33,931 nt of DNA from Blastococcus atacamensis (GTDB lineage Bacteria; Actinomycetota; Actinomycetes; Mycobacteriales; Geodermatophilaceae): contig NZ_POQU01000039.1 of NCBI RefSeq assembly GCF_002938425.1, forward strand, positions 1-33,931. Reading direction: 5' to 3'. The position numbers and the translations under genes are program-made. Below the pieces are notes generated by a model. The model was not told the DNA's origin, ran no database searches, and saw only the letters and a list, made by a program, of their open reading frames with translations. Below, in pieces: positions 5,151 to 24,758 of this stretch (its first letter is position 1; each line of letters begins with the position of its first letter).

Positions 5151-6125
5151 GCCCCGGATGGTTCCAGTTCGCCGTCGAGCCACTCCAGCCGACCGCCGTG
5201 CGGCGCCGACCGGGCCAGCGGCCGGCGGTCCAGGGAGACGACGAACTCCGTGCCCCATCCGTCGACCGGGCGCTCACCGGTCCCGGGCACGGCGCCGGGC
5301 GGCTCCTGGGCGAGCCAGCGCACCGGCAGGTCGGCGACCGCCTCGGCGAACCGCGCCCGGACGTCGCCGGGCACGTAGGGCAGCACCGCCGTGTGCATCA
5401 CGACCGTGCTGCCGGGAGACGCGAGCTCCATCGCGTCGAGGAGCCGGTCGACCAGTGGAAGGACCCCGTCCTCCCCACCCCTCGCACGCTCGGGGCGGGC
5501 CCCGGGACGGGGCCGAACTGCGCCACCGGGCCGGGCCAGACCAGCGCCCGCAGCCACTCCCGGTCATCGGGGTCCCGGGGGTCGAGCGGGTTCAGGTCGA
5601 TGCCGACGCGGGCTGCCACCTGCGGCATCGCGCTGGGCACCGGCACGGCCCCGGAGGTCTCGACCCGGATGCCGAGCGAGTCCGACGGCCGACCCGCACC
5701 CCGTCGTAGTCGTAGTCGTAGCCGTAGCGGTCGGGGTAGAGGCAGAGGCCCGCGGAGGCGCCGACCTCGATCAGCGTCAGCGGGCCGTCGAGCTGCGCGA
5801 GGACCGGGAGCAGGGCGCCGCAGCGGGCCGGCTCGTTGGTCTGGGTGGCGCGGGCGAGGACGGTCTCGCGCACCCGGTCACCGTCCTCGGTGATGCGGCG
5901 CTCGAGTTCGGCGCCGTCGGCGGGCGCTCCGCCCAGGAACTGCAGGGCTGCGAAGAGCAGATTGGGCTGCCGCTTGCCGGTCGGCAGCGCGGCGAGGAAC
6001 TCCAGCACGGGTCCGGACGCGGCGACGTGCGCGGCCAGCTCGGCGTACAGCGGGGAGGTGGGCTCCGCCTCGGCCACGAACTCGCGGTAGCCGCGGGCGA
6101 TCCGGTCGAGGTCCTCGTCGCTCAT
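5147..6125 (-). pseudogene. DUF2332 family gene with two -1 frameshifts
   Basis: DUF2332 proteins are about 330 residues and of unknown function. Here the family sequence is spread over three frames: 6125 to about 5690 (MSDEDLDRIARGYREF... to LCLYPDRYGYDYDYDGVRVG), about 5690 to about 5510 (SDSLGIRVETSGAVPVPSA, GIDLNPLDPRDPDDREW, RALVWP) and about 5510 to 5147 (GVLPLVDRLLDAM, TVVMHTAVLPYV, PVRWLAQE, LEWLDGELEP). Both joints have the phase expected from one missing base, at GGCCG near 5690 and in the G/C-run-rich stretch near 5490-5520. With both restored the length becomes 981 bases, a whole number of codons and normal for the family. Real decay and sequencing error both remain possible. The last stop overlaps the methyltransferase start as GTGA. 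Confidence 0.8.
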
Positions 6126-6144
6126 GCCGGCAGGATCGCAGAGC

Positions 6145-7260
6145 GTGCAGGATCACGGGGTGCAGCCCGACGTCCTCCTCCACCTGGTCGAGCCGTCGGC
6201 ATGGCGCGAGGCCCTGCGCGCAGGCGCGGTTCGGCCAACCTCGCTGACCGACGTCGGGTTCGTGCACCTGTCGACACCGGACCAGGTGCACCTGCCGGCG
6301 CAGGCACTGTTCCCCGGTCGGCGGGACGTGGCGCTGCTGGTCGTCGACCCCGCCCGGCTGCCCGACCCCGTGCGGTTCGAGCCCGGTCGCCTCGAGGACC
6401 CCGCCGGGATGTTGTTCCGGCACCTCTACGGTCCGCTGCCGACGAGCGCCGTCGTCGCCGTGGTGCCCTACCGCCGGCCGCTGCCCCCGCTGCCCTCCCC
6501 CGGCGACTCCGAGGCGCGCGCTCGCGCGTTCCTCACCTCGCTGCCCATCCGACGCGCCGTCGGGGTGGGCGACGTCCCCGGTGGCGTGGCCGTGCTCGAC
6601 CCCGACTTCCCGTACTCCCGCGACAACAACCGGCTGGTTCTCGCCGAGCCGGTGGACGCCGCCACGGTCGACGCCGCCGCCGAGCAGGTGGGCGGCAACG
6701 CCGGCTGGCCGCACCGCGCGGTGCTGCTGGCCTGGGCCGGGGCGGAGGACACCGCGGCGGCGCTGCGCGAGCGCGGCTGGGAGACCGAGGAACTGGTGCT
6801 GATGGCGCGCGCCGGCGAACCCGCGCCTCCCGGCGACGAGCGGGTGTCGGTCGTCGACCAGCGGGAGGTGCACGGCTTCTGGGAGCGGTCCTGGCTCGAG
6901 CGGTTGGCGCACGTGGGCCGCGACCTCGACCGGGTGGTGCGCGAACTCGTCGGCCGCGAGCACCTCAACGACCGGGTCGTGGCGGTGACCGATCTGGTGG
7001 TCCGGGAGGACGGGGAGGTCGTGGCGTCGGCCCAGCTGCGGGTCGACGGCGCCACCGCGGCGGTGGACTCGGTGCTGACCGCGCCGGCCGCCCGGGGCCG
7101 GGGGCACGCGGACGCCCTGCTGCGCCGGGCCCTGCGGCTCGCGGACGAGGCCGGCTGCGACCTCGTCGTCCTCGAGGCGACCGCCGACGACTGGCCGCAG
7201 CACTGGTACGCGCGACGCGGTTTCCGACCGGTCGGCACCATGTGGAGCGCGGAGCGGTGA
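6145..7260 (+). CDS. DUF952 - GNAT acetyltransferase fusion protein
   Basis: A two-domain protein of about 371 residues. The N-terminal 110 or so residues (VLLHLVEPSAWREAL, GFVHLSTPDQV, DPVRFEPGRLEDPAG, MLFRHLYGPLP) match the DUF952 domain, usually a free-standing protein of about 110 residues. The C-terminal part is a GNAT acetyltransferase: the acetyl-CoA loop is in VDSVLTAPAARGRGHADALLRRAL, followed by CDLVVLEATADDWPQHWYARRGFRPVG, a typical GNAT ending. Substrates are unknown. GTG at 6145 is preferred (AGGA nine bases upstream); GTG 6160 also has AGGA at good distance and ATG 6124 lacks a site. It is divergent from the DUF2332 pseudogene and ends against a shared terminator with cdsA. Confidence 0.8.
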   Translation: MQDHGVQPDVLLHLVEPSAWREALRAGAVRPTSLTDVGFVHLSTPDQVHLPAQALFPGRRDVALLVVDPARLPDPVRFEPGRLEDPAGMLFRHLYGPLPTSAVVAVVPYRRPLPPLPSPGDSEARARAFLTSLPIRRAVGVGDVPGGVAVLDPDFPYSRDNNRLVLAEPVDAATVDAAAEQVGGNAGWPHRAVLLAWAGAEDTAAALRERGWETEELVLMARAGEPAPPGDERVSVVDQREVHGFWERSWLERLAHVGRDLDRVVRELVGREHLNDRVVAVTDLVVREDGEVVASAQLRVDGATAAVDSVLTAPAARGRGHADALLRRALRLADEAGCDLVVLEATADDWPQHWYARRGFRPVGTMWSAER

Positions 7261-18339: not shown

Positions 18340-19856
18340 GCCGCTGCCCGTTGGAGTCGCATGCCGAGGGCCTCGGCCACCTCGTCGGAGCCCGGCACCG
18401 TGCGACCCGCCAGATCGCTCAACGTCCACGCCACCCGCATGACGCGGTCGAAGCCGCGCACGGAAATCGCACCCCGCTCCAGCGCCCGCTCGGCCAGCCG
18501 CAGCGACGCCCTCGGAACGGCGAACCGCTCGCGCAGCATGCGCCCGGGCACCTCGCTGTTGAGGCCGAGCCCGGTGCCGGCCAGCCGCTCCCCCGCTGCG
18601 GCTCGTGCCCCGGCGACTCGCGCGGCGACGACGGCGGTGGACTCCGGTGCCGGCAGCCCGTCGAGCCATGCCGCCCGGGTGACCGGTGGCAGTTCGACCC
18701 GAAGGTCGACGCGGTCGAGCAGCGGCCCGGACAGCCGCGCCTGGTAGCGCCGTCGTTCCAGCGGGCTGCAGGTGCAGGCGGTGTCACCCACCGCCGTCGC
18801 GCAGGGGCACGGGTTCGCGGCCAGGACGAGCTGGGCCCGGCAGGGGAACGTCGCCGCGCCGGCTGCCCGCTGGATGGTCACCTGACCCCGCTCGAGCGGC
18901 TGGCGCAGCGTGTCGAGCACCGCCCGAGGGAACTCCGGCGCCTCGTCCATGAAGAGGACGCCGCGATGCGCCCGGCACAGGGCACCCGGCCGGATCGAGC
19001 CGGAACCACCTCCGATGAGCGCCGCCATGGTGGCGGAGTGGTGCGGCGCCTCGAACGTGGGCCGGGTGATCAGCGGGGCATCCGAAGGCAGGATTCCGGC
19101 GATCGAATGGATGGCGGTCACCTCGAGCGCGGACTGCTCGTCGAGCGCGGGCAGCAGCCCGGGCAGCCGCTCGGCGAGCATCGTCTTGCCCGCCCCGGGC
19201 GGCCCCGCAAGGTACAGGTGGTGGCCACCCGCCGCGGCCACCTCGACCGCGCGCCGCCCCGCCGCCTGACCGACGACGTCACCCAGATCGGGCGACGGCG
19301 GTGCCGGCGGCACCGCGCCCCGCACCTGCGGTTCCAGCCGGGTGATGCCCTTCAGGTGCTCGACGAGCTGGGTGAGCGTCTCGACGGCCAGGACGTCGAT
19401 CCGGTCGACGAGCGCGGCCTCGGCAGCGTTGGCCGCCGGGACGACGACGTGGTCGTGCCCCGCCCGCGCCGCGGCCAGTACGGCCGGCAGGACTCCGCGG
19501 ATGGCCCGCACGGAGCCGTCGAGCCCGAGCTCACCGAGCAGCACGAGGCGGTCCACCGCCTGCCGGGGCACCGTGCCCGACGCGGCGAGCACCGCGGCAG
19601 CCAGGGCCAGGTCGAAGCCACTCCCCTGCTTGGGCATCGACGCCGGCGACAGCCCGATGGTGATCCGGCGGGCCGGGAACTCCCCCTTCGCGTTGGCGAT
19701 CGCGGCGCGCACCCGGTCGACCGACTGCCGTACGACCGCATCGGGCAGCCCCACGAGGGCGACGCCGGGGAGCCCGGCGGCGATGTCCACCTCGACCTCG
19801 ACCATCGCGCCGCGGACCCCGGCGAGCCCCACCGACCAGGTGCGGGCCAGCGTCAC
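18336..19856 (-). CDS. YifB/ComM family AAA+ protein (magnesium chelatase-like)
   Basis: A 506-residue protein of the ComM type; ComM is a helicase that promotes branch migration in natural transformation. An N-terminal ChlI-like domain (about 1-165, with ITIGLSPASMPKQGSGFDL) is followed by an AAA+ domain with Walker A GPPGAGKT (218-225), Walker B GVLFMDEAPEFPRAVLD and the sensor-like AANPCPCATA; the cysteine cluster CPCA..CTCSP is typical. The C-terminal Mg-chelatase helical domain ends the protein. GTG at 19856 overlaps the yraN stop as GTGA. The yraN-yifB-dprA order is standard in actinobacteria. Confidence 0.94.
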   Translation of the reverse strand: MTLARTWSVGLAGVRGAMVEVEVDIAAGLPGVALVGLPDAVVRQSVDRVRAAIANAKGEFPARRITIGLSPASMPKQGSGFDLALAAAVLAASGTVPRQAVDRLVLLGELGLDGSVRAIRGVLPAVLAAARAGHDHVVVPAANAAEAALVDRIDVLAVETLTQLVEHLKGITRLEPQVRGAVPPAPPSPDLGDVVGQAAGRRAVEVAAAGGHHLYLAGPPGAGKTMLAERLPGLLPALDEQSALEVTAIHSIAGILPSDAPLITRPTFEAPHHSATMAALIGGGSGSIRPGALCRAHRGVLFMDEAPEFPRAVLDTLRQPLERGQVTIQRAAGAATFPCRAQLVLAANPCPCATAVGDTACTCSPLERRRYQARLSGPLLDRVDLRVELPPVTRAAWLDGLPAPESTAVVAARVAGARAAAGERLAGTGLGLNSEVPGRMLRERFAVPRASLRLAERALERGAISVRGFDRVMRVAWTLSDLAGRTVPGSDEVAEALGMRLQRAAA

Positions 19857-20212
19857 GAGAACGCCCCGCGGAGGTGCGTGACCAGCGCGGGACCCTCGGA
19901 CCGCACCAGTACACCGACGACGTCGAAACGGACGTCACGCGCGTGCTCGTCGTGGGCGGCGAGCCAGCGCTGCGCCAGCACCCGGATGCGGCGCTGCTTG
20001 GTGTGCGTGACCGCCTCGACCGGATGCCCGTACCCGGTGCCCCGGCGGGCCTTCACCTCGCAGAAGACGAGGGCCTCGCCCTCGCGCGCGACGAGGTCGA
20101 GCTCGCCCTCGCGGCAGCGCCAGTTGCGGTCGAGGACGCGGAGTCCCGTGTCGGTCAGGTAGGCGACGGCGATCGCTTCGCCGCGGGCGCCGAGCTCGGA
20201 GGTAGGAGGCAC
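19853..20212 (-). CDS. YraN family (UPF0102) nuclease-fold protein
   Basis: A 119-residue protein with the restriction-endonuclease-like core G-ELDLVAREGEALVFCEVKAR, whose acidic and Lys residues (E, D, E-x-K) are those of the PD-(D/E)xK fold, and LGARGEAIAVAYLTDTGLRVLDRNWR at the start. The function in the cell is not established; family members are suspected Holliday-junction or repair nucleases. GTG at 20212 has GAGGG immediately before it. The first 58 bases are overlapped by the end of the cassette gene 20155-20877, which is unusual for this conserved run. Confidence 0.9.
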   Translation of the reverse strand: MPPTSELGARGEAIAVAYLTDTGLRVLDRNWRCREGELDLVAREGEALVFCEVKARRGTGYGHPVEAVTHTKQRRIRVLAQRWLAAHDEHARDVRFDVVGVLVRSEGPALVTHLRGAFS

Positions 20213-20877
20213 CCCTCGACCATGCCGTCGGGAAGGACGACGGCGAAGGGGCCGCGGGCTTCTGTGGACGGCGACGGGTCCTGTGGAGGACGAGCGACGG
20301 GTCCGGTCACGGCGCAGCCCTGGAGCTGCACGCTTGCCGCCAGCTGGTCCAGATCGGCGAGCATCAGCTCGGCCTCGTGCGGATCGGGTAGCGACGTGGT
20401 CAGCGCCCAGGCGCCCTCGTCGCAGGGGAAGAGGTAGGCGATGTGGTCCGCCACCCTCCCCGTGTCGGCCGACCAGGCCCGCTGCCGTATGCGGATCCGT
20501 CGCAGGCCGGCGTCGGTCGACTGCTCCACCTCCGGCGGCAGCAGCTGCTGTTCGGCAGGGAGCAGGAACTCCTCGACGATGGATGACTCCTCGATCCCCG
20601 GCGAGTAGCGCAGCCCCATCAGGCGGACGCAGGCCCGAGGACCCCGCGACGGCTCCGGGCAGAACACCAGGGCGCCGAAGCTGGGCACCGCGAAGGCCAC
20701 CTTCGCCAGCACCGTGAACTCGGCCGCCAGGATCTCCGCGTCGAGCCGGGAGGGCGGCCCCCCGCCCAGCGCCCAGATGCGCTGGGCCGCCGCGGAGGCC
20801 CAGCCCGCGAGGTCGTCGTCCGGGCCCACCTGCACCCAGGCGGCCGAGAAGTCCACGACGATGTCCGGCGGACCCAC
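20155..20877 (-). CDS. Cassette protein E: possible LpqN/Mog1-like domain protein
   Basis: A 240-residue soluble protein, last gene of the WXG cassette. The block RRIRIRQRAW...HIAYLFPCDEGAWALTTSL (about 126-163) followed by LADLDQLAASV aligns by eye with the 20880-21488 and 23303-24433 products, so the three look like diverged copies of one domain. The strand pattern ending in WALTTSL and an amphipathic helix is like the LpqN/PsbP/Mog1 (DUF1795-like) fold; this fold call is an inference. The last 45 residues are Pro/Ser/Ala-rich and lie partly over the yraN gene. No signal peptide. GTG at 20877 is chosen for closeness to the previous stop; GTG 20895 is an alternative. Role unknown; partner, chaperone or immunity are options. 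Confidence 0.7.
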   Translation of the reverse strand: MGPPDIVVDFSAAWVQVGPDDDLAGWASAAAQRIWALGGGPPSRLDAEILAAEFTVLAKVAFAVPSFGALVFCPEPSRGPRACVRLMGLRYSPGIEESSIVEEFLLPAEQQLLPPEVEQSTDAGLRRIRIRQRAWSADTGRVADHIAYLFPCDEGAWALTTSLPDPHEAELMLADLDQLAASVQLQGCAVTGPVARPPQDPSPSTEARGPFAVVLPDGMVEGCLLPPSSAPAAKRSPSPT

Positions 20878-20879
20878 GG

Positions 20880-21488
20880 TCAGCTCAGCACCCACCGCAG
20901 GCTCCCCCCGATGACGTCGAAGAGCTTCACCAGCGGCGAAGCCAGGTGCTCGACGGGCGTCGTGAAGGTGAGCAGCAGCCACCCGTCGGATCCCGGTACG
21001 GGGACGAAGTAGTCGACCTGGGTCACCGTCAGCTCCCCACTGCGTACACCGTTGGCGTCGGGCACCATTTCCTGCCGCGACGAGAGCCGCCGGACGGCCG
21101 GAGCACCCGCGACGTCCACCAGTCCGAGCTCGCGGACGCCCTTTCCGCTGGACCTCAGACTGCCGAGCAGCCCCTCCAGAGCGCTGCTGCCTCCCGGACT
21201 TCGTACGTGGGTGACCAGTCCGGATGCCGGAACAGGCCGGCCGGCGACCGGATCGACGCTCAGCAGGACGTCGATTCCGCCCTGACGGGCCGCCGATTCC
21301 AGCGCCGCGGTGAGCTCCCGGGTCAGCCAGGCCCGCAGCTCGGCCCGTTGTGGCGCGGGCACGGCGCCCACGCGCTCGGTGACGAGGTTCTTGACCCGGA
21401 GCGGTGCCCGCGAGTCCAAAGGAATGCGTGCCCATCCCGGGGGGAGCAGGATCCGGAAGTCGGTCACCATGGCGACCGGAGCCGTCAC
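20880..21488 (-). CDS. Cassette protein D: possible LpqN/Mog1-like domain protein
   Basis: A 202-residue soluble protein without signal peptide or membrane segment. It starts MVTDFRILLPPGWARIPL (7-24), a layout typical of LpqN/Mog1/DUF1795-like domains (a beta strand with P-x-GW), and ends with AVRRLSSRQEM, TVTQVDYFVPVPGSDGWLLL, TFTTPVEH and a C-terminal helix, matching the corresponding parts of proteins E and A of the cassette. GTG at 21488 overlaps the stop of the 470-residue cassette protein as GTGA, so the two are made together. This coupling suggests direct partnership with that protein. The exact family is not recognised. Confidence 0.75.
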   Translation of the reverse strand: MTAPVAMVTDFRILLPPGWARIPLDSRAPLRVKNLVTERVGAVPAPQRAELRAWLTRELTAALESAARQGGIDVLLSVDPVAGRPVPASGLVTHVRSPGGSSALEGLLGSLRSSGKGVRELGLVDVAGAPAVRRLSSRQEMVPDANGVRSGELTVTQVDYFVPVPGSDGWLLLTFTTPVEHLASPLVKLFDVIGGSLRWVLS

Positions 21489-22897
21489 GACACACGCCCC
21501 AGCGGCATGGACCACCGGTCGACGATGGCCTCCCGGTTCGCCTTGTCCGCGGCCGCCTGATCCAGCGCGGCCGACGGATCCACGCTGACGCTGTCCTGGA
21601 GACCCCAGGCGGTCCTGCCGTTGATCACGGCGTTGGGAACGGTCACCGCTCCCACGACCATCGAGTCGGCCAGCGCGGTCAACGCTGTGAGCTGCGCACC
21701 TCCACCGGCCGCCTGACGGATCCGGTGGATCGCTGTCAGGGCGTCCGCGATGCCGTCCTCCGCGAACGACACCGCGCGGGTGAGGCCGGTACCGGACGAG
21801 CCCGCCGCAGCCGTCACCCCCTCCCGAGCCGCCTTCCCCGCATCATCCGCGGCCTGGAACGTCACCCGCAGTCCCGGCGACAGCTCGAGCAGAGAACGAA
21901 CGCCTAGCAGCCGGCCGAGGTCGAACAGCAGCGGAGAGCGACCGGCATCGGCGAACGCCTGCCGGCCTCCGCGCGCCGCCCCGACGCGTCCTCCGACGCG
22001 CTCCGTCACTCGCAGCATCCCCTGGGCGCCCACTGCGACGCCCTTGCCGAATCCGAGCGTGGCCGCGCCCGCCAGGTCCCAGAGCACGTCCTCGAAAGAA
22101 CCGTTGCCGCTGGCCCACATGTCGAGGCGCACGGTCGCCGACACGAAGCTCAGGGCGCTGCTCGTGACCATGAGGGTCCCGACGAGCGCGACGCCGGGGC
22201 CGAGGACGACGGCGACCACGACGGCAACGATGACCAGGGTCAGGGCAACGACCGAGACGGCATCGAGAAGCGCATCGATCCATCCCGCGTTCAGGTCCCA
22301 CCAGTCGTCGACCAGCTCGTCCCCGATGCGCCCGGCGCTCAGCATGTGCGCTGCGGTCCTCGCGGCGCGCTCGTAGGACTCGACCGCGAAGAAGTAGTCC
22401 CTGCGCGCGGCGGCCAGGGCGTCATCCGCGGCGAAGACCGCCAGCTGGTGAGTCTGCTGCTCGTCCTCGGCAGCGAGGAGTTGCTCGGGCGTCGCGCCGG
22501 AAGGGGGCGCGACCGGCGCGCCATTACGCAGCGCTCGCTGCGAGTCCTCGGCCGCTTGCGCCCGGCGGACCGCGTCGTAGGCCTCGGTCTGCACGACCTC
22601 CAGCGCCGTGGCGAAGAAGTCCAGCGCCCGGGCGGCAGCCTCGTAGCGGCCTCGCGCACGGCCGATTCGCTCGGCCAGATCGCCCGCGACCTCGACGAAG
22701 TTGTCGCCCGCCTCGCCCTTCCACGCCTTCTGCGACCGCGACGTGAGCGCCGTCAGGTTCGCTGCCTGGGCCTCGATCTCCGCCGCGGTGTCGGCGTAGC
22801 GACGGGCCAGGGTGGCGAGCTCCTCAGGATCGCCCGGCACACCGTTGCGGTCGTCCAGCGGCTCGAAGGATGCCGGCGCCACCGGGGTGACGGTCAC
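21485..22897 (-). CDS. Type VII secretion-type WXG/LXG-like protein with transmembrane region
   Basis: A 470-residue protein. Residues 22-125 form a long helical hairpin with W59-K60-G61 between the helices (SQKAWKGEAGDNF), the hallmark of WXG-type type VII substrates; a second helical stretch runs to about 190. Residues 212-256 hold two hydrophobic segments (VSVVALTLVIVAVVVAVVL, GVALVGTLMVTSSALSF), then a Gly/Ala-rich region 275-315 and an alpha-helical C-terminal part 340-470. No known toxin domain or nuclease motif is seen in the C-terminal part. GTG at 22897 overlaps the stop of the small WXG100-like gene (GTGA), making a typical co-secreted pair. Inferred role: secreted or membrane-inserting effector or surface protein. 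No ESX ATPase genes are in the window, so the exporting machine must be elsewhere. Confidence 0.75.
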   Translation of the reverse strand: MTVTPVAPASFEPLDDRNGVPGDPEELATLARRYADTAAEIEAQAANLTALTSRSQKAWKGEAGDNFVEVAGDLAERIGRARGRYEAAARALDFFATALEVVQTEAYDAVRRAQAAEDSQRALRNGAPVAPPSGATPEQLLAAEDEQQTHQLAVFAADDALAAARRDYFFAVESYERAARTAAHMLSAGRIGDELVDDWWDLNAGWIDALLDAVSVVALTLVIVAVVVAVVLGPGVALVGTLMVTSSALSFVSATVRLDMWASGNGSFEDVLWDLAGAATLGFGKGVAVGAQGMLRVTERVGGRVGAARGGRQAFADAGRSPLLFDLGRLLGVRSLLELSPGLRVTFQAADDAGKAAREGVTAAAGSSGTGLTRAVSFAEDGIADALTAIHRIRQAAGGGAQLTALTALADSMVVGAVTVPNAVINGRTAWGLQDSVSVDPSAALDQAAADKANREAIVDRWSMPLGRVS

Positions 22898-23196
22898 GGC
22901 GAACAGCCCTCGGTCGCGGTCTGGATCGCCTGGGCGAGCTCGTTGTCCACCTGCACGTAGGCGTCGTGGCTCTGCGTCGCCGCCTCGTACACCGCCTGCA
23001 GGGACTGAAGCAGCTTCTCCCTGTTGCACGCCCACTCGTCGACGAACTCGCGCACCTCGTCCAGCAATGCGTTCCGGCCGATGGTTGGCTCCGCGTCCTC
23101 GACGATGTCCGCCGACCGCTGGAACTCGTGCACCAGCATCCCGAGACCACCCGCGGTCTCGCGGAGCAGGGGGAGATCGACCACGATGTCCGCCAC
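22894..23196 (-). CDS. WXG100/EspC-like small type VII secretion partner
   Basis: Exactly 100 residues, entirely helical by eye: VADIVVDLPLLRETAGGL, then a helix with FQRSADIVEDA, a turn near 39-42, FVDEWACNREKLLQSLQAVY and a last amphipathic helix. Tryptophan 55 sits near the middle but the strict W-x-G is replaced by W-A-C, as in EspC-like (DUF2580-type) proteins that precede larger secreted proteins in actinobacteria. GTG at 23196 has a textbook AGGAGGTG site nine bases upstream, the best in the cassette, so this is probably made in excess. Its stop overlaps the start of the 470-residue partner. It lies 106 bases after the membrane-anchored gene, and that gap may hold an internal promoter. 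Confidence 0.75.
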   Translation of the reverse strand: MADIVVDLPLLRETAGGLGMLVHEFQRSADIVEDAEPTIGRNALLDEVREFVDEWACNREKLLQSLQAVYEAATQSHDAYVQVDNELAQAIQTATEGCSP

Positions 23197-23227
23197 GCCC
23201 GCACCACCTCCTCGTCTGTTCGTCGCG

Positions 23228-23283
23228 GAACGTAATCGTTCGCGCGAGGACGAGTCGGCGGTGCGACGGTTGCTTGTGGACAA
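23228..23283 (-). promoter_or_regulatory. Candidate internal promoter/operator region of the WXG cassette
   Basis: In the 106-base gap before the WXG100-like gene the minus strand shows TACGTT as a possible -10, lying inside the palindrome GAACG-ATTA-CGTTC (23228-23241). CCGACT 18 bases upstream of it is a weak -35. Further upstream TTGTCCACA (23283-23275) matches the actinobacterial DnaA-box consensus and is itself part of the palindrome TTGTCCACAA (23274-23283). The overlap of palindrome and -10 suggests a repressor site. All of this rests on motif matching. Confidence 0.3.
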
Positions 23284-23302
23284 CGCCGGCCGGAAGCAGC
23301 CC

Positions 23303-24433
23303 CTACCAGTCCGACCAGATGGGGTCACCGACCAGAAGGCCGCCGACCACGAGCAGCAGGACAGCGCCGAGCAGCGCCCAGAACGTCAGCATCCACAGAC
23401 CGCCGGTGAAGATCCACATCGGCGCGGCCCCCGGGTGCGCCTGCTCCATCTGCCGCGTGCTCGTGAACCGCCGGTCGTACACGGGCAGGCCGCTGGTCTC
23501 CAGCAACTCCACCGGCCACATCGTGTCGAGCGACCTCAGGGGTTCCAGCGCACTGCGGACGAGCACGCGGCCGTCCGCATCGATGAGCATCAACCGCCAG
23601 CTGTCGTGGAACTGCGGAGATCCGGCCTTGATCGGCGGGAACGTCGCGCGCAGCAGCCCCGCGACCTCACCGGGACCGGATCCCAGCGGCAAGTGGACGC
23701 GACGTCGCCGAAAGGCGTCCTCCACCCAGGTGACCTCGCGCTTCTCGCGGTCGATCGTGAGGGAGCAGTGCGCCATGTTCTGCGCGGAGCGGTGAGGGTC
23801 GGCATCCGTCCCGGGAACACCCGGGCGGAGGACGACGACCGGCCCCTCGACCACGGGCATCCGAGCGCGCATGCCGTTCGCCAGCTCGTCGATGGTTCTC
23901 AGGTTCGCCGCCACGACTCCCTGGTAGTCGGTGAGCGAGGTGGAGAGGACCCACACCGCCCCCGCGACGGGAACGAACCACCGGACCTGTTCCTGCACCC
24001 TCGCCCAGCGCCGGCGCCCCACCTGCCGGCGCATCCGCACCGCCCCGACGCCGGAACCCGGCACCGGCTCGATCAGCGGAGGAGCCAGCCGCGGGTCGTC
24101 CGACCGGAGGTGGGCCCGCAGCACCTCGTCGACGGCCTGTGCCGCGGGCAGCGCCGGGTCGTGCTCGTGCCGGCTGAGGCGCACGGCCATCTCCGGCGGG
24201 TCGGGAAGTCCCCCGTCCATGCGGAGGAAGACACCGACGCACCCGGCGTCGATGGTGTCCCTCAGCACAGGGAGCCACGAGCCGGTGAACCCCCTCGCGC
24301 GAGAGCGGGGCATACCGATGTACTCGAGGTGACGGGTGAAGTCGCGCCACGAGCCCTGCTGCTCCCAGTCGGCCGGGAAGTAGGCCCACGGCCGTGCGTG
24401 CTCGACGACGAGACCGGGCGGGTGGGACAGCAT
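23303..24433 (-). CDS. Cassette protein A: membrane-anchored protein with LpqN/Mog1-like N-terminal domain
   Basis: A 376-residue protein, first gene of the cassette. Residues about 5-190 look homologous to cassette proteins E and D (PPGLVVEHARPWAYFP, EMAVRLSRHEHDP, AVRMRRQVGRRRWARVQEQV, RWFVPVAGAVWVLSTSLTDY). Residues about 195-335 form a second beta-rich domain (HCSLTIDREKREVTWVEDAF, WRLMLIDADGRVLVRSALEP) that I cannot name. One transmembrane segment (about 339-367, MWIFTGGLWMLTFWALLGAV) ends the protein, leaving seven residues, so it is tail-anchored with the domains probably in the cytoplasm. The ATG at 24433 lies four bases past the DUF2469 stop without a clear binding site, so it may depend on coupling. 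It could tether the cassette's other products to the membrane. Confidence 0.75.
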   Translation of the reverse strand: MLSHPPGLVVEHARPWAYFPADWEQQGSWRDFTRHLEYIGMPRSRARGFTGSWLPVLRDTIDAGCVGVFLRMDGGLPDPPEMAVRLSRHEHDPALPAAQAVDEVLRAHLRSDDPRLAPPLIEPVPGSGVGAVRMRRQVGRRRWARVQEQVRWFVPVAGAVWVLSTSLTDYQGVVAANLRTIDELANGMRARMPVVEGPVVVLRPGVPGTDADPHRSAQNMAHCSLTIDREKREVTWVEDAFRRRRVHLPLGSGPGEVAGLLRATFPPIKAGSPQFHDSWRLMLIDADGRVLVRSALEPLRSLDTMWPVELLETSGLPVYDRRFTSTRQMEQAHPGAAPMWIFTGGLWMLTFWALLGAVLLLVVGGLLVGDPIWSDW

Positions 24434-24437
24434 CCAG

Positions 24438-24758
24438 CTACGGGAGGCGGGGGTTCTCGGGCAGCTCGAGGTCGGGCTTGTCGAGCTCTTCGACGTTGAC
24501 GTCCTTGAACGTCAGCACCCGCACGTTCCGGACGAAGCGGGCGGGCCGGTACATGTCCCACACCCAGGCGTCGGAGAGCTTCAGCTCGAAGTAGACCTCT
24601 CCCCCCGCCTCCCGCACCTGCAGGTCGACGGAGTTGGCCAGGTAGAACCGCCGCTCGGTCTCCACCACGTAGGTGAACTGGCGGACGATGTCCCGGTACT
24701 CGCGATAGAGCTGCAGCTCCATCTCGGTCTCGTACTTCTCGAGGTCCTCGGTGCTCAT
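24438..24758 (-). CDS. DUF2469 family protein
   Basis: A 106-residue protein conserved across actinobacteria, homologous to the protein encoded next to rnhB in mycobacteria (Rv2901c). Recognised by MSTEDLEKYETEMELQLYREY, split as EDLEKYETEMELQLYREYRD and FTYVVETERRFYLAN, then VYFELKLSDAWVWDMYRPARF and the VLTFKDVNVEEL ending. Function unknown. The ATG at 24758 overlaps the rnhB stop as ATGA, so the two are coupled as in other actinobacteria. Downstream, the conserved order is interrupted by the WXG cassette. Confidence 0.93.
   Translation of the reverse strand: MSTEDLEKYETEMELQLYREYRDIVRQFTYVVETERRFYLANSVDLQVREAGGEVYFELKLSDAWVWDMYRPARFVRNVRVLTFKDVNVEELDKPDLELPENPRLP

Follow-up and report, generated by a model that had tools for sequence, protein, structure and literature searches.

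Between the housekeeping genes for DUF2469 and yraN, the actinobacterium Blastococcus atacamensis (GCF_002938425.1, genome 3.89 Mb) carries a cassette of five minus-strand genes, here called A to E (Table 1), which we studied within a 33,931-nt stretch of contig NZ_POQU01000039.1, the window of our analysis. We consider it probable that the cassette encodes a substrate pair (B and C) of a type VII secretion system (T7SS) with a non-canonical, T7SSd-like EccC ATPase, together with dedicated chaperones (D and E) resembling the Eag chaperones of type VI secretion. B-C-D-E is a recurring module across the class Actinomycetes, often found next to a gene for a non-canonical EccC. The link to type VII secretion, which an earlier note had drawn from the letters of the window, is well supported: C matches WXG100, the genome encodes an EccC-type ATPase beside a WXG100 gene, and linkage to such ATPases extends across the class.

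What can be learned from the putative substrates themselves? C passes the Pfam model for WXG100 (PF06013) with 31.6 bits against a cut-off of 27.3, and reaches 31.3 bits with NCBIfam TIGR03930, under that model's cut-off of 44.85. In the structure model of C, a WKG motif at residues 59-61 sits at the turn between predicted helices 24-58 and 62-125, the helical hairpin expected of a WXG protein, and hydropathy marks two hydrophobic stretches at 214-232 and 236-254. The earlier description of C as a WXG protein with a putative membrane hairpin is upheld. Among 23 aligned homologues of C, W-x-G is found in six, W-x-S in 12 and neither in five, and 14 match T7SS_signal (PF21725) at E values up to 1, the best at 5.3e-13. 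By structure comparison, the first ~190 residues of the C model match PPE15 and PPE41, with BAR domains scoring alike; by sequence, a single one of the 23 proteins matched the PPE family, at a non-significant E value of 0.022, among the 25 of 41 families listed. The final ~170 residues of C in Blastococcus are helical and contain no known effector domain.

The YxxxD/E motif is absent from C and present in B. A [YF]xxx[DE] motif lies near the C-terminus of all 23 B homologues and has the Y form in 14, a count whose shuffling control covers the Y form only and which is drawn from mutually related proteins. B had been called EspC/WXG100-like. At E values up to 1, five of the 23 members match WXG100 (best 0.0035) and three EspC (best 0.011), with weak matches to DUF6507 as well, while B of the window has no match above the cut-off to either WXG100 or EspC. 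PE is absent from the 24 families matched by the 23 proteins, and EspB_PE is matched by one of them, at 0.019. A kinship of B with the WXG domain of C was rejected on a profile comparison of 0.8%.

The helper genes are related to each other. D and E are homologues by profile comparison (96.8%, E 2.7e-10), and E in turn matches the front of A (96.5%); by these profiles, D and E belong together with the N-terminal half of A to one protein family, for which Pfam has no model. Neither D nor E matched any Pfam family at E values up to 1, and A yielded Transgly_assoc only (0.19, far under cut-off). The predicted structure of D (pLDDT 86, pTM 0.82) has its fold matches in the PsbP/Mog1/DUF1795 group. 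At E values up to 1, none of 22 D members and none of 19 E members matched the DUF1795/DcrB family, the EspG fold is not among the best 50 fold matches listed for D, and a search by sequence for solved structural relatives of D and E returned none that was convincing. LpqN was considered as a relative of D and E and set aside, the sequence comparison not being significant.

Hydropathy reveals no N-terminal signal-like stretch in D or E. The characterization of both as soluble fits D, whereas E has a borderline hydrophobic stretch at 60-78 (Kyte-Doolittle 1.86). A, proposed to be a tail-anchored protein of two domains, does have a single hydrophobic helix at its C-terminus by hydropathy, and its second domain occurs as a separate frame in two other loci (L040 and L183). 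Some other cassettes carry a different, two-half membrane protein between C and D/E. By eye it resembles the second domain of A, but we do not claim a relationship: hmmsearch of the fetched loci gave six relatives of this domain, not that protein, and hhalign gave 0.3%. In locus L038 (genome G002), the match to the N-terminal part of A is split over two frames at 6112-6250, and A may be broken there.

The association of these genes is not a peculiarity of the window. A search with C matched 16 of 20 Blastococcus genomes, and individual genomes have as many as three C genes. In the 21 genus loci that we fetched, comprising 22 C genes with the window's own excluded, B is located directly upstream of C in every case, and a same-strand D/E gene lies at most 4.5 kb away in 21, the exception being at a contig edge. 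As the loci outside the genus were chosen via D, only the genus part tests the presence of D near C. At least two D/E-type matches per C were counted in 28 of 43 cases, including the front half of A and shared neighbours. Across 22 cassettes, divergence is correlated among B, the N-terminal part of C and D (r 0.93-0.945), and likewise between the C-terminal part of C and D (r 0.90); the correlated change of B, C and D indicates that the genes travel as a unit. In named records, the close relatives of D are all from Blastococcus (5/5). A search for D found it in 19 of 96 genomes and four of 12 genera of the Geodermatophilaceae, and its profile detected it in 44 of 394 genomes and 17 of 137 genera of the class; in this class-wide search eight candidates were scored per genome, "D-negative" means that no match was found there, and some may have been missed.

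Two distant genomes are informative about the role of D. In one (L165), RHS repeats follow a C-like N-terminal part in the same protein, and D is the gene immediately upstream, with no B; in the other (L182), C ends in a hydrolase-like part (Pfam matches under cut-offs only) and D follows downstream. In these two cases D thus goes with the WXG-plus-hairpin part, whatever follows it, a pattern that speaks for D as a chaperone or adaptor rather than as an immunity protein. Two further features of individual cassettes deserve mention. The D gene of genome G018 (L037, 6805-7386) lies at dS 0.25-0.31 from those of G013 and G002 but at 0.41 from its counterpart in the sister species, G006, a hint of recombination inside the cassette. 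One type of cassette is immediately followed downstream by a gene (10280-12397 of L050) for a cellulose-synthase-like protein with glycosyltransferase 2 and PilZ matches in Pfam, and clustering places similar genes in L048 and L051.

The window cassette is not adjacent to the ATPase of its genome. The best EccC match there is a 1459-residue FtsK/SpoIIIE protein with an FHA domain, encoded beside a WXG100 gene on another contig (C82, locus L035; FtsK_SpoIIIE 2.4e-56, FHA 8.8e-10, WXG100 2.8e-19), and the notion of a genome devoid of any ESX system can be dismissed. A second, weaker EccC-matching locus is presumably an ordinary FtsK. EccC-type ATPases are encoded in all 20 Blastococcus genomes, and all score under the canonical EccC cut-off; by non-canonical we mean precisely a TIGR03924 score under the curated cut-off. 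The EccB model matched none of the 20 genomes, and its controls gave no match either.

Co-occurrence with eccC, a check that the earlier note had suggested, was clear at the level of the class: a non-canonical EccC is present in 44 of 44 D-carrying genomes, as compared with 29 of 60 D-negative ones (Fisher 4.6e-10, ignoring relatedness). The 60 were picked by handle number, and the 29 include partial EccC matches in G120 and G288. Using 64 of the 67 D rows, with three fragment rows left out, we found D within 10 kb of a non-canonical EccC in 29 of the 44 genomes, and never near a canonical one, though 17 of the 44 have one. Outside the genus, the fetched stretch contains the ATPase in 10 of 20 selected loci (18 genomes). 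Pfam FHA is found in three of the six ATPases scanned among these (L184, L181 and L172); L179 has an FHA-like match that stays under the cut-off, and L168 and L176 have none. The ATPase class is thus not uniform, hence our use of "non-canonical" rather than "FHA-type". Two loci, L052 and L049, share the same-strand arrangement ATPase-D-B-C, and the ATPase gene of L052 is adjoined by one for a Ser/Thr kinase; inspection by eye of the genes listed around the ATPase of the window genome revealed no kinase.

We consider the following scenario probable. The genes, their families and co-inheritance, the association with the ATPase, the predicted fold of D and the helical WXG domain of C come from computation; secretion, the pairing of B with C, chaperoning, membrane insertion in a target and the role of A are inferred. 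B and C would be secreted together as a pair, in the manner of PE/PPE or Lap/LXG proteins, with C supplying the WXG hairpin and B the YxxxD/E-type signal. The hydrophobic hairpin of C, which may insert in a target membrane, would have to be kept out of the producer's own. D and E, related and devoid of an export signal, would work in the cytosol as a pair of chaperones, binding C (most likely at the hairpin) and passing B-C to the EccC encoded elsewhere in the genome. A, membrane-anchored and with an E-like front half, could perhaps serve as a docking point. Extending this to the class, we put forward, more tentatively and at slightly less than even chances, a widespread actinomycete type VII route that would rely on Eag-like chaperones with the PsbP/Mog1 fold, and not on EspG-type ones, to bring membrane-inserting WXG-hairpin effectors to a non-canonical, often FHA-bearing EccC.

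In the principal competitor of this scenario, C is a toxin that disrupts membranes, and D, E and A confer immunity to it. Several points weigh against chaperoning and towards immunity, or at least blunt the distinction: the fold matches of D include type VI immunity proteins and not Eag alone, the argument for a chaperone over an immunity protein rests on the two cases L165 and L182, and the distance comparison across the 22 cassettes fails to separate the two roles. However, immunity usually tracks the toxin part, whereas D persists with RHS or hydrolase-like substrate C-termini; immunity proteins against membrane-disrupting toxins face the periplasm, whereas neither D nor E begins with a signal-like stretch; and several D/E-type matches per C are common, by the count given above. 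We regard an immunity function as unlikely.

Somewhat less likely still, A-E could be accessory parts of the machine, an envelope conduit with its assembly factors, instead of a substrate with its escorts. In its favour, the module lies near the ATPase in 29 of 44 genomes, and C has membrane helices and, in Blastococcus, no known effector domain. Yet two Blastococcus genomes (G012 and G013) have three different C genes each and one EccC match each, four of the 20 have the ATPase and no C match, and a C-like protein with RHS repeats exists. A lineage-specific cluster unconnected to type VII secretion, in which the WXG likeness is a coincidence of helical bundles, would agree with the distance of the window cassette from the ATPase, and with WXG100 being a simple fold for which BAR domains score alike; but the WXG100 match above a curated cut-off, the T7SS_signal matches in 14 of 23 C proteins and the linkage to the ATPase already disfavour it, and we rate it as very improbable. 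We thus retain the chaperoned substrate pair as the preferred reading.

Table 1. Genes of the cassette and its immediate surroundings (window coordinates)
Feature	Position	Strand	Description
A	23303..24433	-	376 aa; E-like front ~1-190, second domain ~195-345, hydrophobic C-terminal helix 351-369
B	22894..23196	-	100 aa, putative partner of C; W55 and R59 invariant in B alignment; YVQVD (YxxxD) at residue 80
C	21485..22897	-	470 aa from GTG; WXG/PPE-like helical domain 24-191; hairpin ~214-254; helical C-terminal part
D	20880..21488	-	202 aa; PsbP/Mog1/DUF1795 fold predicted; no Pfam family above cut-off
E	20155..20895	-	246 aa; D homologue; final ~50 residues encoded in yraN leader and yraN start
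DUF2469	24438..24758	-	left neighbour, housekeeping; PF10611, E 1e-52
yraN (UPF0102)	19853..20212	-	right neighbour, housekeeping; PF02021, E 2.6e-30
Two TCCACAG repeats	20261..20286	-	ancestral yraN leader, yraN side of cassette; from junction comparison

The arrangement and the overlaps of B to E reported earlier are reproduced by our coordinates, as is the absence of ESX machinery genes from the DUF2469-yraN interval. The cassette is situated 3' of rnhB-DUF2469, directly behind the DUF2469 stop, with A starting 4 nt past it and separated from B by 106 nt. B/C and C/D overlap by 4 nt each (GTGA) and D/E by 16 nt, and so B-E are probably translationally coupled. E overruns yraN by 58 nt (20155-20212), whereas E of L037, L038 and L040 stops before yraN; in the window, the last ~50 residues look like translated leader sequence. 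The ancestral yraN leader of ~75 bp persists as in empty-site relatives, with two TCCACAG-type repeats 19 nt apart. In 12 junctions compared, the second copy is always TCCACAG, and the first is TCCACAG in eight and TCCACAC in four (G005, G006, G014 and G015). The repeats, which we take to resemble actinobacterial DnaA boxes, could be regulatory. Median dN/dS against orthologues is 0.51 for A (six pairs of four genomes), 0.16 for B, 0.43 for C, 0.29 for D and 0.41 for E, as compared with 0.056 for DUF2469 and 0.096 for rnhB; all five genes are under constraint, weaker than that on their housekeeping neighbours. A PADLOC search for defence systems with the five window proteins gave no match.

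The junction can be read in 19 of the 20 Blastococcus genomes, the contig ending there in G011. The cassette is present in six, a gap of 81-89 bp in another six, and 362-404 bp with a small opposite-strand frame in four; the remaining three measure 454, 756 and 1321 bp. A housekeeping unit conserved in all relatives is hence rejected. The small frames (L078, L083, L085 and L086; 76-104 aa) are clearly alike, start with MYVETVVQ or a short extension, and are unrelated to the cassette. Midpoint rooting of a tree built from the four flanking proteins places the six carriers in one group with G003, whose site is empty (support 0.96 for this split, only 0.27 for the G012 branch); this points to a single arrival plus one loss, or to two arrivals. 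In G030, from another genus of the family, the same junction is occupied by B-C-D-E together with the second domain of A. There, the stretch between cassette and yraN also contains a plus-strand gene that looks NmrA-like by eye (L183, 6180-7310). Transfer, by recombination in the conserved flanks, and repeated loss would both explain this distribution. In Mycobacterium tuberculosis the junction presumably holds fdhF/fdhD, and the site had been proposed to collect accessory modules. It is variable, and occupied in G030 too; but within Blastococcus the carriers cluster, and the other junctions are short gaps or, in four genomes, hold a small frame. The proposal is thus supported in part, and a collection of many kinds of modules is not demonstrated.

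How does the cassette relate to known secretion systems, as described in the passages of the sources cited here? With mycobacterial PE-PPE pairs and EspG (T7SSa) it would share a small YxxxD/E partner, a long partner with W-x-G at the turn, whose first ~190 residues match PPE15/PPE41, and a dedicated cytosolic chaperone. It differs in the absence of any significant PE or PPE family match, in the predicted fold of its helper, in the number of helper-like genes (two to three for each pair), in its non-canonical ATPase and in the hydrophobic hairpin of C. The Eag chaperones of type VI secretion (DUF1795; EagT6, EagR1, SciW) bind membrane segments of their prePAAR effectors, and their genes adjoin those of effectors with N-terminal membrane helices (PMC7773334); the predicted fold of D and its place beside such a putative effector are alike, but the cassette is of type VII and actinobacterial, has no DUF1795 sequence match, and contains two diverged genes, D and E. 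As the defining sequence features of neither group are present, we file the cassette as a variant type VII substrate module, neither PE/PPE nor Eag.

LXG/Lap systems (T7SSb) likewise combine a long helical WXG-like domain with a small helical partner (PMC11217815). The cassette, however, is actinobacterial and has a T7SS_signal/WXG domain, and the passages used make no mention of PsbP/Mog1-fold helpers for LXG/Lap (PMC11217815). T7SSd of Actinomycetota comprises TsdA, TsdC, TsdD, TsdH and TsdI, TsdD being a Ser/Thr kinase at the ATPase locus (PMC11217815). The FHA-bearing EccC-type ATPase and WXG100 gene of the window genome, and the kinase beside the ATPase in L052, are in line with this; the FHA domain in just three of six ATPases outside the genus and the lack of a kinase seen by eye at the window genome's ATPase are not, and B-E are not among the T7SSd components described in those passages. 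Polymorphic toxins with T7SS_signal (PF21725) resemble C in their N-terminal part, which in L165 continues into RHS repeats, whereas C in Blastococcus ends in its helical segment.

PsbP/MOG1 proteins have so far been discussed in the context of type VI secretion, as possible adaptors in its operons in a 2012 survey (PMC3482391) and as carriers of a domain called diagnostic of it in a 2025 paper (PMC12419801); a limited literature search found no publication on PsbP/Mog1-fold helpers in type VII systems. If our reading is true, two secretion machines that are unrelated would use one chaperone fold for effectors with membrane segments. Finding a PsbP/MOG1 gene beside a toxin would then cease to identify type VI secretion, contrary to the passage of PMC12419801, and annotations that treat such genes as markers of type VI would call for caution. 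Should D and E shield the hairpin of C, the export of membrane-helix proteins would have been solved with one fold in both type VI and type VII secretion. Non-canonical EccC is frequent in the genomes sampled, in all 20 of Blastococcus and in 29 of the 60 D-negative ones of the class, while its substrates and chaperones are little described, as far as our limited literature search extends. The module described here offers a defined set of putative substrate, partner and chaperones that is testable outside pathogens, and the D profile would provide a handle on type VII substrates that are too variable to be recognised by their own sequence.

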